Source: an uncultured Opitutaceae bacterium (lineage in GTDB: Bacteria; Verrucomicrobiota; Verrucomicrobiia; Opitutales; Opitutaceae). From it: a DNA stretch of 64,000 nucleotides. The position numbers and the translations under genes were made by a program. The stretch lies in contig CAIOZY010000036.1 of NCBI GenBank assembly GCA_903862935.1, positions 62,001-126,000 of the forward strand. Direction: 5' to 3'. Shown here piece by piece: positions 20,634 through 26,820 of this stretch (the stretch's first letter is position 1; the number at the start of each line of letters is the position of its first letter). Under the pieces are notes generated by a model. That model did not search any database. It worked only from the letters and a program-made list of their open reading frames with translations, and was not told the origin of the DNA.

Positions 20634-21899
20634 TCAGACCAGGGTCCGGCTGTAGGCCCGCTCGAGGATCTCGAGGGTGTGCAGGATCGGAATCGGGCGG
20701 CCGAGCCGCTTGAGGTGCGCGTCGATCTGGGTCAGGCAGCCGATGTTTCCGGTCGCAACAAACTCGGCCCCGTTCGCCAGGAGGTTCTCGGCCTTGCGCC
20801 GGCCCAGGGAGGCAGCCACCTGGGGCTGCTCCAGGTTGTACGTTCCCGCAGAGCCGCAGCAGATCTCCCACTCGGCCGGCTCGACGAGCTCAAGGCCGGG
20901 GATGAGGGCCAGGAGCCGGCGCGGGGCCGCCCGGACCTGCTGCGCGTGCGCAAGATGACAGGGGTCGTGGTAGGCGACCCGGACCTTGCGCGGCAGGGCT
21001 GGCGGCGGGACGGCCCCTAGCCGCTCAAGAAAGGCGCAGATGTCGCTGGACAGCTCTGCAAACTGCTCGGCCCGCCCCTCCTCGGGCAGGCCCCTGAAGA
21101 GCAAAGGGTACTCCTTCAGTCCCGACCCGCAGCCGGCCGCGGTTGTGAGGATCGCGTCCACGTCCCGGGGAAAAACCTCGAGGTTTCTCCGCGCGGTCCG
21201 ACAGGCCGCCTGACCCTCGCCAATGTGCATTGCGAGGGCCCCGCAGCAGGCTTGGCCCCGGGGAACCACGACCTCGACCCCGTTTGCGTTGAGGACCCTC
21301 TGTGCCGCCCGGTTGATCCCGGGCGCGAGGACCTGCTGGGCGCAGCCGGACAGAAGCGCGATCCGAGCCCGGCGCGGCCCGTTGGGGGCTGAGAAAGCCG
21401 GAAGCGGGTCGGAGGGAGGGACCGTTCTCGGGGCCAGTTCGAGCATCGGGCGCAGCGCCCCCGGCAGGAGCGCGCGCACCGGTCGCGCCATCCGGGCGAG
21501 CGCCACGGCAGCCTTGAAGCGGCCCGGAAATGGAAGGGTCAGAAGGATAACGCGGCGCCGCAGCCTCTCGATCCAACTGCGGCTCCGCCGCGGCTCGGAC
21601 CAGGCCCGGTAGGGCATCAGGAGCTCCCCGTAGCGCACTCCCGACGGGCAGGCCGTCTCGCAGGCGAGGCAGCCCAGGCAGCGGTCCACGAAGGGCTTCA
21701 CCTCGTCGGCCGAGAGCCGCCCCTCCAGGGCCTGCTTCATCAGAACGATCCGTCCCCGGGGGGAGTTCATCTCCTCGCCAAGCTCCGCGTAGGTGGGGCA
21801 CGTCGGCAGGCAGAACCCGCAGTGGACGCAGGAGGCGACCGCGTGCGCCATCGCCTCGGTGCGGGGGCCCGCGCTGTCCTTTTTGATCTCGTGGAGCAT
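20634..21899 (-). CDS. glcF: Glycolate oxidase iron-sulfur subunit
   Basis: GlcF carries electrons from the flavin subunits of glycolate dehydrogenase to the membrane quinone pool. The 421-residue protein has two 4Fe-4S ferredoxin motifs, CVHCGFCLPTCP (C24, 27, 30, 34) and CLGCLACETACP (C74, 77, 80, 84), and two CCG domains (ACCGALAMHIGE and ICCGSAGTYN). The start at 21899 (MLHEIKK) has a weak AGGA upstream and leaves 10 bp after glcE. It is last in the glcD-glcE-glcF unit. Confidence 0.93.
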   Translation of the reverse strand: MLHEIKKDSAGPRTEAMAHAVASCVHCGFCLPTCPTYAELGEEMNSPRGRIVLMKQALEGRLSADEVKPFVDRCLGCLACETACPSGVRYGELLMPYRAWSEPRRSRSWIERLRRRVILLTLPFPGRFKAAVALARMARPVRALLPGALRPMLELAPRTVPPSDPLPAFSAPNGPRRARIALLSGCAQQVLAPGINRAAQRVLNANGVEVVVPRGQACCGALAMHIGEGQAACRTARRNLEVFPRDVDAILTTAAGCGSGLKEYPLLFRGLPEEGRAEQFAELSSDICAFLERLGAVPPPALPRKVRVAYHDPCHLAHAQQVRAAPRRLLALIPGLELVEPAEWEICCGSAGTYNLEQPQVAASLGRRKAENLLANGAEFVATGNIGCLTQIDAHLKRLGRPIPILHTLEILERAYSRTLV

Positions 21900-21909
21900 C
21901 GTCGTGGTC

Positions 21910-22992
21910 CTAGAAGTCAGGAAAGCGACCGGCCGGGTCCATGGCGGCCTTGACCCGGGACCGGAAGAGGTCGCCACGGGTCCTGCCGATCAGGGGGGTC
22001 TGGCAGTCTCCGCGGATGACGAGCCCGGCGAGCCCCCGTGCGGCTAGAAGTCCGGCGAGTTCGCCGGCGGGCGCGGGCCAGTCGACCCAGGCGACGCTTC
22101 CCCCGGCCGAGTACCGCCGGGCCGCTCCGGCGGCCCCGAGGTCCCGGTCCAACTCGGCGATCGCTCGCGGGGTCACGGGAACCTTTGCGAGGACCCGGGA
22201 CGGGGTTTCGGGCATCCGGGGGGCCAGGCCCCTCCAGAGTTCCTCCTCTTCCCCACCGGTTACCCGGCGGGCGCGGCCGCCCACAAATCCCTCCAGCCGG
22301 GGAAGGCGCTCAGCGAAGGTCTCCGCACTGCCACCGATGCGGACCGAGAGGGTTCCCGGCGGCTCGAGTTCGAGGCCCTCGATGTCAAAAGGCGACGTCA
22401 CCAGCCGGGCCATCGCTTCCAGGGCGGCCGGCATGTCCGGAAACTGAGCGACCACGGTCGCATGGGCCCACTGCTGGGGAAAGACCTTGAAGCTCGCCTC
22501 AACGATCACGCCCAACCGGCCGAGGCTTCCCGTAAACAATTTCGGCAGGTCGAACCCTGCGGCATTCTTGACGACCCTGCCTCCGGCCAGCGCGAGCTCC
22601 CCCAAGCCCGTGACGTAGCGGACCCCGAGGATAAAGTCGCGCAGGCCCCCGTAGCGGTACCGGCCCGGGCCGCTCAACCCCGAGGCGATCGCCCCGCCCA
22701 GCGTGGCCCCGGAGTCGGCGAACGGGGGGTCGAAAGGAAGGTGCTGGCCGTTTCGGGCCAGGGCCGAGGCGATCTCCGAAAGGGGCGTCCCGGCGAGGGC
22801 CGTGAAGGTATACTCCCCGGGCTCGTAGGCGACGATGCCGGTGAGCCCGCGCAGGTCCAAGACGGCGAAACCCGGCGGGGGCTGCGACAGCCGCGGCTTG
22901 GTTCCCGCGCCCGCGGGAATCAGGTGCGGGGTATCCCGCACGGCGGAGGCGACCTCCTGTGGAGTCCGGGGGCTGTTGGGGGCGGCGCTCAT
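21910..22992 (-). CDS. glcE: Glycolate oxidase FAD-binding subunit
   Basis: A 360-residue, shortened relative of GlcD with a PCMH-type FAD-binding fold: [12 protein letters not shown] near residue 23, [25 protein letters not shown] reduced here to [29 protein letters not shown] and [12 protein letters not shown]. It forms the second flavin subunit of glycolate oxidase. Its ATG overlaps the glcD stop by four bases (ATGA), and glcF follows closely, so the three are one operon. Confidence 0.93.
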
Positions 22993-24473
22993 TCCCGAGA
23001 GATTAACCCCGCCTTTTCCAGGGGATGGGCTCCGCGCTGCCCCGGGACCGGCGCAGAGGCGCCCGCCACAAACATCTTGCCCGGGTTCGACAGGCCCAGG
23101 GGGTCAATCGCGCGGTGCAGCCGCCGCATCACGCCCAAGTCGGTCTCGCCAAACATCTCCGGAAGATAGGCCTTCTTCTCCAGGCCCACGCCGTGTTCGC
23201 CGGTGATGGAGCCGCCGAGCCTGAGGCACAGCCTGAGAATCTCCCCGGCGAGGACCTCGGCCCGGTCCAAGGCCCCGGGCTCGCGGCCATCGTACAGGAT
23301 CAGCGGGTGGAGGTTTCCGTCCCCTGCGTGGAAGACGTTCGCGACCCGGATCCCGTGGGAACGGCTCAATTTCTCGATCTCGCCCAGGGCCTCGCTCAGC
23401 CGGCTCCTGGGGACGACGCCGTCCTGCACGAGGAAGTCCGGCGAGATCCGTCCCACGGCGGAAAACGCGCTCTTCCTGCCCTTCCAGAAGAGCATCCGCT
23501 CCTCGGGCGTGCGGGCGATCCGGACCTCCCGAGCCCCTGAGGCGCGGATCACCTCGCCCAGCCTCGCGAAGTCGGACTCCACCCCGGCCTTCTCCCCCTC
23601 AAGTTCCACGAGGAGCACCGCGTTCGCGTCCTTCGGGTAGCCCGGGTGCACGGCAGCCTCCGCGGCCTCCAGGGCCAGCCTGTCCATGATCTCCATCGCT
23701 CCGGGGAGAATCCCGGTGGCCACCACGCTTGCGACTGCCGAGCCCGCGTCCTCGATCCGTTCGTATGCGGCAAGAATCGTGCGGTAGGTCTCCGGCATCG
23801 GGACCAGCCTCAACACAAACTCCACCGCCACCCCGAACAGGCCCTCGTTGCCCGTATAGACCCCGGTCAGGTCGGGGCCCACGGACTCGAGGCTTTCGCC
23901 GCCGAGTTCGACCAGCTCCCCGTCGGGCAGAACGGCGGTAATCCCCAGGACGTGGTTCGAGGTCATCCCGTGCTTCAGGCAGTGGGCCCCACCGGCGTTG
24001 AAGGCGACGTTCCCGCCGATCGTGCAGATGGGCTGGCTCGAGGGGTCCGGAGCGTAATAGAGCCGGTGGGGGGCGGCCGCGCGGGAGACCGCGGAATTCA
24101 CCGCGCCCGGCTCGACGATCGCGATTCTCTGCACGGGGTCGACCTTGAGGATCCGATCAAGCCGGTTCATGGCGATCAGCAGCCCCCCGGCGACGGGAAC
24201 GGAGCCGCCCGACAGGCTGGTCCCGCTCCCGCGGGCTACAAAGGGGATCCGGTGGCGGTGGCAGAGCCTGACGGCCGCAACAACCTCATCCTTGGAAATC
24301 GGGATCACGACCGCAAGCGGGCTCACCCGGAAGGCCGTAAGCCCGTCGGACTCGAACGGGGCGAGTTCGGCGGGGGAGCTCAGAAGCCTCGCGCGCGGGA
24401 ATGTGCCCTCCAGCGCGGACAGGAATTCGCGCGAGGCGGCCGGCAGCGGGGCGGGAGGCGCGGCTCTCGTCAT
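22989..24473 (-). CDS. glcD: Glycolate oxidase catalytic FAD-linked subunit
   Basis: GlcD oxidises glycolate, or a related 2-hydroxy acid, to glyoxylate. The 494-residue protein shows the FAD-binding [32 protein letters not shown], the catalytic-domain [13 protein letters not shown] and the terminal [13 protein letters not shown] and SNPGKMF. The start at 24473 (MTRAAPPAP) is preferred; two ATGs further up (24530, 24524) are in a poorly conserved leader and overlap the palindrome region. Lactate dehydrogenase of the same family is an alternative, but glcE and glcF alongside favour glycolate. Confidence 0.93.
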
Positions 24474-24534
24474 GGACGGTCCCGATCTTGGGCGATCCCG
24501 GCCGGCGAGAACAGCGCAATCCATCTTCAAAATC

Positions 24535-24575: not shown

Positions 24576-25163
24576 ATGCCGAACCCCGCATCGACGCCGG
24601 ACTGGCTTGTTCCCGCGCTGGTGGTCGCCTCCTACCTGCTCGGAAGCCTTTCTCCGGGATGGTGGCTCGCCCGGAGGGCCGGCGTTGACTTGAGACAGAA
24701 GGGAAGCGGGGTCACGGGGGCGAGCAACGCCGGCCGGGTGCTTGGCATGAAGGGCTACGTCGCGGTCCTTATCCTGGACACGGCAAAGGCCATGGCCGCC
24801 GTGTATGCCGCGCACTGGCTCGCCCCGGAGGCTCCATGGGGCCTGCTCGTCGTCCCGGCGGTGGTTGCCGGCCACATCTGGCCCGTATGGCTGGGCTTCA
24901 AGGGCGGTCGCGGGGCGGCCCCGCTCCTGGGGGCGTTCCTCGCCGTCAATTTCTGGATCGTCCTTTACGCGTTTATCCCGGGCGCAGTGGCCTGGGCGAT
25001 CCTGCGCAAGGGCTTCGCAACGAAGGCCGCCGCGTTCGCCTCAAGCCTGCCGATCGCCTGCTGGCTTGTGCCCGCAGCGCCGGGGCGCGCGGCCCTGGTC
25101 CTGGCCTGGCTCCTCGTCCTGCTTGCGCACCGCCAGTATTTTGGTAAAACCTTAACCCGCTGA
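24576..25163 (+). CDS. plsY: Divergent PlsY-type glycerol-3-phosphate acyltransferase
   Basis: A 195-residue membrane protein with about five hydrophobic segments. PlsY uses acyl phosphate to acylate glycerol-3-phosphate, the first step in phospholipid synthesis. Family landmarks are YLLGSLSPGWWLAR at the start, GSGVTGASNAGR where canonical motif 1 reads GSGNIGATN, GHIWPVWLGFKGGRGAAP for motif 2, and a SLPIACWL end segment. The changes in motif 1 (V for N, S for T) and R for K in GGKG are notable; substrate could have shifted. It is followed 19 bp later by the acyltransferase-aminotransferase fusion gene, suggesting one transcript. The start has a pyrimidine leader (ctcccattccc). Confidence 0.8.
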   Translation: MPNPASTPDWLVPALVVASYLLGSLSPGWWLARRAGVDLRQKGSGVTGASNAGRVLGMKGYVAVLILDTAKAMAAVYAAHWLAPEAPWGLLVVPAVVAGHIWPVWLGFKGGRGAAPLLGAFLAVNFWIVLYAFIPGAVAWAILRKGFATKAAAFASSLPIACWLVPAAPGRAALVLAWLLVLLAHRQYFGKTLTR

Positions 25164-25182
25164 CCCTTTCGAGGCAGATTAG

Positions 25183-26820
25183 ATGGAACCGACCACGGTT
25201 TTCAAAATAGCAACGACTCCCGACGAGTTCGAGCAGATCCACCGGCTGAACCACCAGACGTTCGCCGAGGAGATTCCTCAGCACGCCTCCTCCCCCGAGG
25301 GACGTCTCGTCGACAAGTTCCACGCCGAGAACACGTACCTGATCGGTGTGCGCGACGGGCGGGTGATTGCGATGATGGCGATCCGCCGGCGCCGGCCGTT
25401 CTCGCTCGACGCGAAGCTGCCCGACCTCGACCGGTGGCTCCCGCCCGGCCGCAAGCCCGTGGAGCTGCGGCTGCTCGCGGTCCTGCCCACCCACAGGAAC
25501 GGGCCGGTTCCCGCACAGTTGCTTCACTTCACCGCAAGGCACTGCCTGGAACTCGGCGACGACGTCGCCGTCATCTCGGGGCTCGCGCGCCGCAAGCAGC
25601 TGTACCGCGCGATGGGCTTCGAGCCGTTCGGCCCGGTCGTGGGGACGCCGGAAGCTCTGTACCAGCCGATGCTGCTTACCCTCGAGAATTTTGCCCGGGC
25701 TTCCGGGCTGCGCCGCAGCCTCCGGGGCGCCGCCGTGGAGAGCCCCAGCCCCCGCGAACCTGTGAACCTCATGCCTGGGCCGGTGGCCGTCAGCCCGGCC
25801 GTCCGCGCCGCCTTCGCCCGGCCACCGGTCTCTCACCGATCCCGGGAGTTCATGGGCGAGCTGAGCGCGCTGCGGCGCAGGCTCGCCGCGCTCGCCAAGG
25901 CCCAGAATGTCCAGGTGCTTCCGGGCAGCGGATCCCTCGCAAACGACCTTGTCGCAGCCCAACTTGCCGGGCTGAACCAGCCCGGGGTCGTCGTGTCGAC
26001 CGGGGAGTTTGGGGAGAGGCTGGCCGACCACGCGCGCCGCGCGGGGCTTGAGTTTCACTGGGCGAGGCTTCCGTGGGGGGCCGTGCCCGCGCAGTCCGAC
26101 ATCGAGGAGGCTCTCTCCCAGGCCCGTTCCCCGGGCTGGCTGTGGATGGTCCACCACGAGACTTCGACCGGGGTCTTGCACGATCTCGAGCCGCTGAAGG
26201 CTCTGGCGGCCGCCCGCGGGGCAAAACTCTGCCTGGACTGCATCAGCTCGATCGGCGCCGTGCCGGTGGACCTTACAGGCGTCTTCCTTGCGACCGGCAC
26301 GAGCGGCAAGGCCCTGGCGGGCTTCCCCGGCCTAGCCCTTGTCTTTCACGGGGAGGATCCGGCGCAGAGGCCCGACCTGCCCCGCTACCTCGACCTGGGG
26401 TTGTGGGCCGCAAGCGAAAGCTCGCCCTTCACCCATTCCTCGAACCTCGTGGCCGCCCTGGACGTGGCGCTGGCGGAGGTGGAGAGACTTCCGGCGGGTC
26501 GGTGCGGCGACGGAACCCTTGCGGTGTGGCTTCGCGCGGAACTGAGGACCGCCGGCTTCACGCTGATCGCTCCGGAGACCCACGCCTCCCCCATCATCGT
26601 GTCCGTTCAGCTGCCTCCGGGCGTGCTGGCGGAGGACGTTGGCTTGGCGCTGGAGCAACTGGGGTTTCTGACCAGCTACCGGAGCGGTTACCTGCTCGCC
26701 CGGAACTGGATCCAGGTGAGCCTCATGGTCGGTCCCTCCAAGGACGACCTTGCCGGGATGATCGCCCACCTGTGCGAACTCTCGGGGATGGCGGCCTACC
26801 GTTCCGCGGCAGCGGGCTGA
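25183..26820 (+). CDS. GNAT-like acyltransferase fused to class V aminotransferase
   Basis: A 545-residue two-domain protein. Residues about 6-170 look like a GNAT acyltransferase of the autoinducer/N-acyl-amino-acid synthase style: EFEQIHRLNHQTFAEEIPQ, then YLIGVRDGRVIAMMAI, then an LRLLAVLPTHRNGPVPAQLL segment at the acyl-CoA/ACP site and a closing LYRAMGFEPFGP. After a linker (172-195) a class V PLP aminotransferase begins at VNLMPGPVAVS, with HETSTGV (325-331), D352 in LDCISSIG and the PLP lysine K376 in GTSGKALAGFPG; this half resembles alanine/serine-glyoxylate aminotransferases. Both domains look intact. Co-occurrence with a PlsY-type gene hints at an acylated amino product; the true reaction is unknown. 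Confidence 0.8.
   Translation: MEPTTVFKIATTPDEFEQIHRLNHQTFAEEIPQHASSPEGRLVDKFHAENTYLIGVRDGRVIAMMAIRRRRPFSLDAKLPDLDRWLPPGRKPVELRLLAVLPTHRNGPVPAQLLHFTARHCLELGDDVAVISGLARRKQLYRAMGFEPFGPVVGTPEALYQPMLLTLENFARASGLRRSLRGAAVESPSPREPVNLMPGPVAVSPAVRAAFARPPVSHRSREFMGELSALRRRLAALAKAQNVQVLPGSGSLANDLVAAQLAGLNQPGVVVSTGEFGERLADHARRAGLEFHWARLPWGAVPAQSDIEEALSQARSPGWLWMVHHETSTGVLHDLEPLKALAAARGAKLCLDCISSIGAVPVDLTGVFLATGTSGKALAGFPGLALVFHGEDPAQRPDLPRYLDLGLWAASESSPFTHSSNLVAALDVALAEVERLPAGRCGDGTLAVWLRAELRTAGFTLIAPETHASPIIVSVQLPPGVLAEDVGLALEQLGFLTSYRSGYLLARNWIQVSLMVGPSKDDLAGMIAHLCELSGMAAYRSAAAG

Follow-up and report, generated by a model that had tools for sequence, protein, structure and literature searches.

A PlsY-type acyltransferase gene paired with an N-acyl synthase–aminotransferase fusion as a candidate pathway to an amide-linked serinol phospholipid

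Gene pair and predicted domains

Two adjacent forward-strand genes of an uncultured Opitutaceae bacterium lie at positions 24,576–26,820 of a 64,000-nucleotide stretch of DNA (the window: contig CAIOZY010000036.1 of assembly GCA_903862935.1, positions 62,001–126,000), taken from a source genome (G000) whose 62 contigs total 3.35 Mb. The upstream gene encodes a membrane protein related to PlsY, the acyl-phosphate:glycerol-3-phosphate acyltransferase, and the downstream gene encodes a fusion of a FeeM-like N-acyl synthase domain with a class V aminotransferase. Here we analyse both proteins and their linkage across genomes, and consider a short lipid pathway to N,O-diacyl serinol phosphate, to which we give a slightly better than even chance as the function of the pair. 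Its features, all on the + strand, are as follows (ORF, open reading frame; PLP, pyridoxal phosphate; pLDDT, predicted local distance difference test score; AGT, alanine–glyoxylate aminotransferase).

24576–25163, +: PlsY-like ORF, 195 aa (PF02660; paired-PlsY clade), proposed O-acyltransferase of N-acyl serinol phosphate
25171–25174, +: possible ribosome-binding site of the fusion gene, GAGG, 8 bases ahead of its ATG (by eye)
25183–26820, +: FeeM/aminotransferase fusion, 545 aa, proposed N-acyl serinol (phosphate) synthase
25237–25677, +: FeeM/LuxI-like GNAT domain, residues 19–165 (PF21926; model compared with FeeM 2g0b)
25711–25749, +: linker, residues 177–189 (pLDDT <50)
25759–26772, +: class V (PhnW/AGT-like) aminotransferase, approximately residues 193–530 (TIGR03301, Foldseek)
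26308–26310, +: codon of the PLP lysine K376, invariant in 60 of 60 aligned sequences
26713–26715, +: codon of Q511, at the position of the PhnW C-terminal arginine (Q in 60 of 60)

The ORF positions confirm both reading frames, their coordinates and the 19-bp gap between them on the same strand, as given in the original prediction, which had been made from the sequence alone. The PlsY-like protein matches PF02660 (G3P_acyltransf) with 113.3 bits (cut-off 24.1), in agreement with the predicted membrane acyltransferase, and does not reach TIGR00023, the NCBIfam PlsY equivalog (93.2 bits; cut-off 137.2). The only solved structure found for it was 5xj5, along with other entries sharing its sequence (E = 1.6e-18).

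Within the fusion, residues 19–165 match the FeeM profile PF21926 (40.1 bits; cut-off 27) and residues 215–387 match the class V aminotransferase profile PF00266 (29 bits; cut-off 21.5). The structure model of the whole protein has a mean pLDDT of 91, and a Foldseek search with it was headed by PhnW (2-aminoethylphosphonate:pyruvate aminotransferase) and alanine–glyoxylate aminotransferases. Modelled alone (pLDDT 91), residues 1–176 matched GNAT structures: ranked by E-value, the plain GNAT 5jph came first and FeeM (2g0b) third, followed by BjaI and LasI, and FeeM and BjaI had the highest query TM-score (0.77) among the 50 matches listed. The N-terminal acyltransferase, which had been rated the less certain assignment, is thereby upheld by profile and predicted fold, as is the class V aminotransferase with its lysine K376. 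FeeM shares both fold and profile with this N-terminal domain, but the 2g0b chains comprise 170–189 residues and have no aminotransferase. A LuxI-type autoinducer synthase was rejected as an identity (PF00765, 17.2 bits; cut-off 24).

Residues invariant across 60 aligned fusions include, for the FeeM part, N23, D44, R71, E94 and R96 and, for the aminotransferase part, D352, K376 and Q511. PhnW is nearest to the C-terminal domain in fold and profile, but the fusion scores only 140.8 bits against TIGR03301 (PhnW; cut-off 360.8), and Q511 aligns with an arginine of 7e7g and 1m32. This C-terminal arginine is substrate-binding in PhnW, and its invariant replacement by glutamine is in keeping with a substrate that differs from the customary keto acid or phosphonate. 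Given the low PhnW score and the glutamine, a plain phosphonate pathway was rejected as too simple. Separately, residues 189–510 of the 555-residue chain in PDB entry 9os7 match the aminotransferase part of the fusion family; the entry's title, methionine–tRNA ligase, looks misplaced.

Distribution of the fusion and its linkage to PlsY

The fusion is a widespread family. Relatives in the genome collection comprised 291 candidate stretches, the best 80 of which, each spanning both domains, were used and together with the window give 81 loci. Record titles among these best 80 of 291 name Verrucomicrobia, Firmicutes, Proteobacteria, Acidobacteria, Actinobacteria (Catellatospora) and Planctomycetes as well as Nitrospirae, Dehalococcoidia, Gemmatimonadaceae, Dadabacteria and Sumerlaeaceae; many of the records are metagenome assemblies. 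A full-length fusion occurs in 8 of the 57 genomes searched, counting the source genome, with the other seven 50–73% identical, and a genome of the same genus (G012) carries it. At the level of the class, 9 of 189 genomes with at least 90% completeness contain the full fusion and two the FeeM part alone. Near-full-length matches were present in 49 of 398 sampled Bacilli genomes, two of them with an internal stop, and the fusion occurs in 6 of 45 genomes of the Desulfosporosinus lacus family, two of these proteins being 47% and 49% identical to that of the window. A stand-alone FeeM-like relative (222 bits) was also seen in genome G126 (L137:9227–9835), next to genes that by eye resemble a lipoyl-domain acyltransferase and Hsp70.

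In 62 of the 81 loci, a PlsY gene on the same strand lies directly upstream of the fusion or overlaps it, so that the pairing which the original prediction proposed to look for in other genomes does recur. These 62 include two partial cases (L076 at a contig end, L101 with a short ORF) and close relatives, and hence do not represent 62 independent events. The overlap is 4 bases in 17 loci, with ORF starts set mechanically. Among Bacilli, 18 of the 30 fusion loci examined have a PlsY upstream, within 1.5 kb, and in the D. lacus family all six fusion loci have it directly upstream, one interrupted. At L060 (7326–9656), PlsY, the FeeM-like domain and the aminotransferase occupy a single reading frame of 776 aa, for which an assembly error is possible. 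When the presence of PlsY was mapped onto a FastTree phylogeny of 60 fusions (41 with PlsY, 16 without, 3 unassigned), 11 label changes were counted against a shuffled mean of 14, a count that 14 to 15 of the 500 shuffles matched or undercut; linkage is therefore mildly clustered, and has been repeatedly lost or gained.

Four of the 81 loci, from different lineages (L036, L086, L089 and L103), have a gene combining PlsC with an acyl-ACP/CoA-synthetase-like part directly upstream of the paired plsY (ACP, acyl carrier protein), called by Pfam in L086 and L103 and by similarity in L089 and L036; those of L086, L089 and L103 also contain a major facilitator superfamily part. In one genome the plsY ahead of the fusion is broken by a stop codon (L216:6513–7118), and at L136 (genome G133) a FeeM-like domain that lacks the aminotransferase part comes after a PlsY ORF.

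An extra PlsY copy co-occurs with the fusion. Among 18 of the 57 genomes searched, two PlsYs were found in all eight with the fusion and one in all ten without it (Fisher p = 2e-5; the other PlsY of the source genome is at G000:C53). In the same class, two PlsYs were present in 8 of 9 fusion genomes versus 4 of 178 without a fusion match (p = 1e-10), six of the 178 having none, and in Bacilli at least two were present in 29 of 29 fusion genomes versus 5 of 20 controls (p = 1e-8), all these p values ignoring kinship. For 26 genomes of named loci, at least two PlsYs were found in 14 of the 15 with an adjacent PlsY. Linkage in 62 loci, taken together with this co-occurrence, led us to reject chance pairing of plsY and the fusion. 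The Dehalococcoidia genome of L073 (G243) contains five PlsY-family matches, three of them on long branches (L176–L178).

The paired PlsY clade and its active site

Paired PlsYs constitute a clade separate from housekeeping PlsY. When 100 PlsY rows were placed in a maximum-likelihood tree, the 60 from paired loci, the window protein among them, fell on one branch (support 100/99) with a single further row, L174, which is the second PlsY of a Planococcus genome and does not adjoin a fusion; bootstrap values of this tree were still unsettled, and six branches, including L174, were flagged as long. The paired rows carry labels of nine phyla (Verrucomicrobiota, Bacillota, Chloroflexota, Acidobacteriota, Nitrospirota, Gemmatimonadota, Planctomycetota, Myxococcota and Thermodesulfobacteriota), two being unlabelled. 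Profiles built for paired and housekeeping PlsY were used to score the extra copies from 6 of the 12 Bacilli genomes with an unlinked fusion, and in five of these six the paired profile outscored the housekeeping one for one copy, by 24 to 40 bits. By comparison, in control Bacilli with more than one PlsY (four of the five sampled), the extra copies all favoured the housekeeping profile. Several fusion-bearing Bacilli have a third PlsY (L221, L224, L226, L228, L231 and L237), another type of PlsY, which favours the housekeeping profile.

In Aquifex PlsY (aaPlsY), Ser35, Arg45, Lys104 and Asn180 clamp the phosphate of glycerol-3-phosphate (G3P), Ser142 and His177 touch its 2-OH, and the side chains of Thr41 and His92 bind acyl phosphate; K104R retains 25% of activity, and the Asn180 changes described are damaging (PMC5700162; this and the other papers are cited for the accessible parts of their text). 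These sites were mapped through the 5xj5 alignment, the numbering of which was taken as one ahead of that in PMC5700162, and were counted in 60 paired and 39 housekeeping rows, a few of them fragmentary. The phosphate clamp is mostly kept: Ser35 and Arg45 each occur in 58 of 60 paired versus 36 of 39 housekeeping PlsYs, Lys104 in 52 of 60 (8 Arg) versus 38 of 39, and Asn180 in 46 of 60 versus 38 of 39. His177 is likewise conserved (60 of 60 versus 38 of 39). By contrast, Ser142 is present in only 1 of 60 paired rows (42 Gly, 13 Ala) versus 33 of 38 readable housekeeping rows, and Thr41 in 18 of 60 (34 Arg, 6 Lys) versus 36 of 39.

The paired proteins thus resemble PlsY in Pfam family, in Ser35, Arg45, His92 and His177 and in the GGKG/GGRG loop, but differ from the housekeeping enzyme in clade and, for most, at Ser142 and Thr41, with Lys104 and Asn180 changed as well in the window protein. 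Retention of most of the clamp together with loss of Ser142 may be read as pointing to an acceptor that is still phosphorylated and altered at C2, a pattern that is suggestive only. The window PlsY is among the most altered of the paired set; it has Lys at position 142, where a one-residue shift is possible.

Proposed pathway and competing explanations

N-acyl serinol is a gut-microbial ligand of GPR119. The N-acyl serinol synthases of Desulfitobacterium hafniense DP7 and of Bacillus sp. 2_A_57_CT2 presumably carry an aminotransferase domain, and both features of such an enzyme, an N-acyl synthase domain and an aminotransferase with a PLP lysine, are present in the window fusion. The N-acyl synthase (hm-NAS) genes of these two strains are stated to yield N-palmitoyl serinol in E. 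coli (PMC9605164). That product differs from the one considered here in being unphosphorylated with one acyl chain, and a dedicated PlsY is not mentioned in the accessible part of that paper. The N-acyl serinol cluster of Bacillus sp. 2_A_57_CT2 is entered in MIBiG as BGC0001683, and its similarity to two phosphonate clusters is given as low (0.16; PMC12795557). Transamination of dihydroxyacetone phosphate (DHAP) to serinol phosphate is described for RtxA (PMC3222319) and Cj1437 (PMC11800397) and, as a slow reaction, for human PSAT1 (PMC9283133). Acylation of N-acyl serinols into phospholipid-like species has been proposed for host metabolism (PMC12594153).

The original prediction had considered the fusion unusual as such and had named, as grounds for abandoning its interpretation, that the fusion be a common protein of known function. 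With a family this broad, and with N-acyl synthase genes stated to make N-palmitoyl serinol (PMC9605164), the claim of unusualness lacks support and those grounds apply in part; the domain assignments, the view that one enzyme both forms and acylates an amine (as an interpretation of the two domains) and the lipid-like product hinted at by the adjacent membrane acyltransferase retain their support. Among the papers listed by our literature searches, none describes a PlsY paired with N-acyl serinol synthases, and in the one search that combined PlsY with serinol the sole co-mention among the listed papers was 'serinolysis'. The kind of enzyme represented by the fusion is already known, whereas its dedicated PlsY and the implied lipid seem, within the reach of these searches, undescribed; the dedicated PlsY looks to be the new element.

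The simplest pathway using all three activities would lead from DHAP through serinol phosphate and its N-acyl derivative to the N,O-diacyl form. The aminotransferase domain would form serinol phosphate from DHAP with the help of an amino donor, and the FeeM domain of the same chain would transfer an acyl group, probably from acyl-ACP, onto the new amine to give N-acyl serinol phosphate. The dedicated PlsY would then place an acyl group from acyl phosphate on the free hydroxyl. The N,O-diacyl serinol phosphate so formed would be the amide counterpart of phosphatidic acid and could feed phospholipid synthesis; N-acyl serinol would be a dephosphorylated by-product. This pathway draws its support from the domains and their predicted folds, the conserved residues, the gene order, the co-occurrence and the separate PlsY clade. 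As context in its favour, PlsX, the source of acyl phosphate for the last step, is encoded in the source genome, and four loci have the PlsC/acyl-ACP-synthetase-like gene upstream. We infer both that the window fusion yields a serinol product and that the phosphate is retained. Conversion of DHAP to N-acyl serinol phosphate strikes us as quite probable, and O-acylation by the paired PlsY as having about an even chance. Somewhat short of even, and put forward tentatively, is the fuller proposal that the native product is a phospholipid class made with the dedicated PlsY, in which the sn-2-equivalent acyl chain is amide-linked on serinol phosphate and N-acyl serinol is a shunt or breakdown product.

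If true, this pathway would add an amide-linked phospholipid to bacterial membranes, with paired PlsY rows labelled to nine phyla. It would also supply a role for a distinct PlsY subfamily and show how N-acyl serinol synthases serve the bacteria in which they occur. Such a lipid should withstand mild alkali and probably many lipases.

Several observations weigh against this pathway. No PlsY lies upstream of the fusion in 19 of the 81 loci (L051 and L091 of these being at contig ends), and among the neighbouring ORFs of 17 of the 19, inspected by eye with no profile searches, nothing was obvious as a substitute acyltransferase. The same-class genome G187 has a full fusion with one PlsY, distant from it, and of the 11 named-locus genomes without an adjacent PlsY, one has two copies, five have one and five have none. 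PlsY was absent from three Catellatospora and two Dadabacteria fusion genomes and single in Saezia, in two termite-gut betaproteobacterial assemblies (L044 and L056, by title) and for L083 and L088. Such genomes without an extra copy, G187 included, indicate that PlsY is not obligatory for the fusion. The paired profile is ahead by only 6.5 bits for L174 and by only 1.5 bits in G369, the sixth of the Bacilli genomes with an unlinked fusion. Although the window PlsY keeps Ser35 and Arg45, its Lys104 is replaced by Arg and its Asn180 by Tyr. Four housekeeping rows have Ala142, so that loss of Ser142 is not diagnostic, and Arg or Lys in place of Thr41 in 40 of 60 paired PlsYs means that their acyl donor could differ. 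On the side of the fusion, glutamine at the PhnW arginine position would leave amino-donor binding unexplained, and the assignment of the family to N-acyl serinol synthases, drawn from architecture and taxonomy, is itself provisional. Two reviews give Gemella instead as the maker of N-acyl serinol, in their accessible parts.

The absence of PlsY from several fusion lineages would suit an arrangement in which the fusion makes free N-acyl serinol as a signal or surfactant and PlsY is a second ordinary G3P acyltransferase that balances acyl supply. Such a function is in line with N-palmitoyl serinol as the stated product of the synthase gene in E. coli (PMC9605164) and with the retention of Ser35, Arg45 and His177 in 58, 58 and 60 of the 60 paired PlsYs. 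It accounts poorly for a separate PlsY clade that tracks the fusion across phyla, in the cases checked mostly even where the two are unlinked, and the altered pocket residues and the three-domain reading frame favour a joint product; we regard it as unlikely. The lipid pathway proposed above could also run in a different order and reach the same final lipid, with PlsY acting first to form acyl-DHAP, which the fusion would transaminate and N-acylate. Loss of the 2-OH contact Ser142 suits a 2-keto acceptor too, and plsY is the first gene of the pair, but a 1-acyl-2-amine tends by general chemistry to rearrange. Moreover, the N-palmitoyl serinol ascribed to E. coli that expresses the synthase gene hints that PlsY does not have to precede (PMC9605164). 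We strongly doubt this order, and among the readings weighed here give it the least credence.

A product of another kind would arise if the aminotransferase supplied an amino acid or aminophosphonate that FeeM N-acylates and PlsY O-acylates, resulting in an N-acyl amino acid or ornithine-lipid-like compound. In the OlsB/OlsA and GlsB/GlsA aminolipid pathways, an N-acyltransferase and then an O-acyltransferase act on an amine, and PhnW as the nearest aminotransferase would be compatible with such a substrate. Against this, glutamine replaces the PhnW arginine in all 60 fusions and the PhnW model score is far under its cut-off; OlsA, in addition, is PlsC-type, whereas the O-acyltransferase here is PlsY-type and the amine would come from the same chain that acylates it. 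We hold such a product to be very improbable.

Next to the candidate gene pair, three ORFs on the − strand of the window (20634–24530) resemble by eye the glycolate oxidase subunits GlcF, GlcE and GlcD and point away from plsY.

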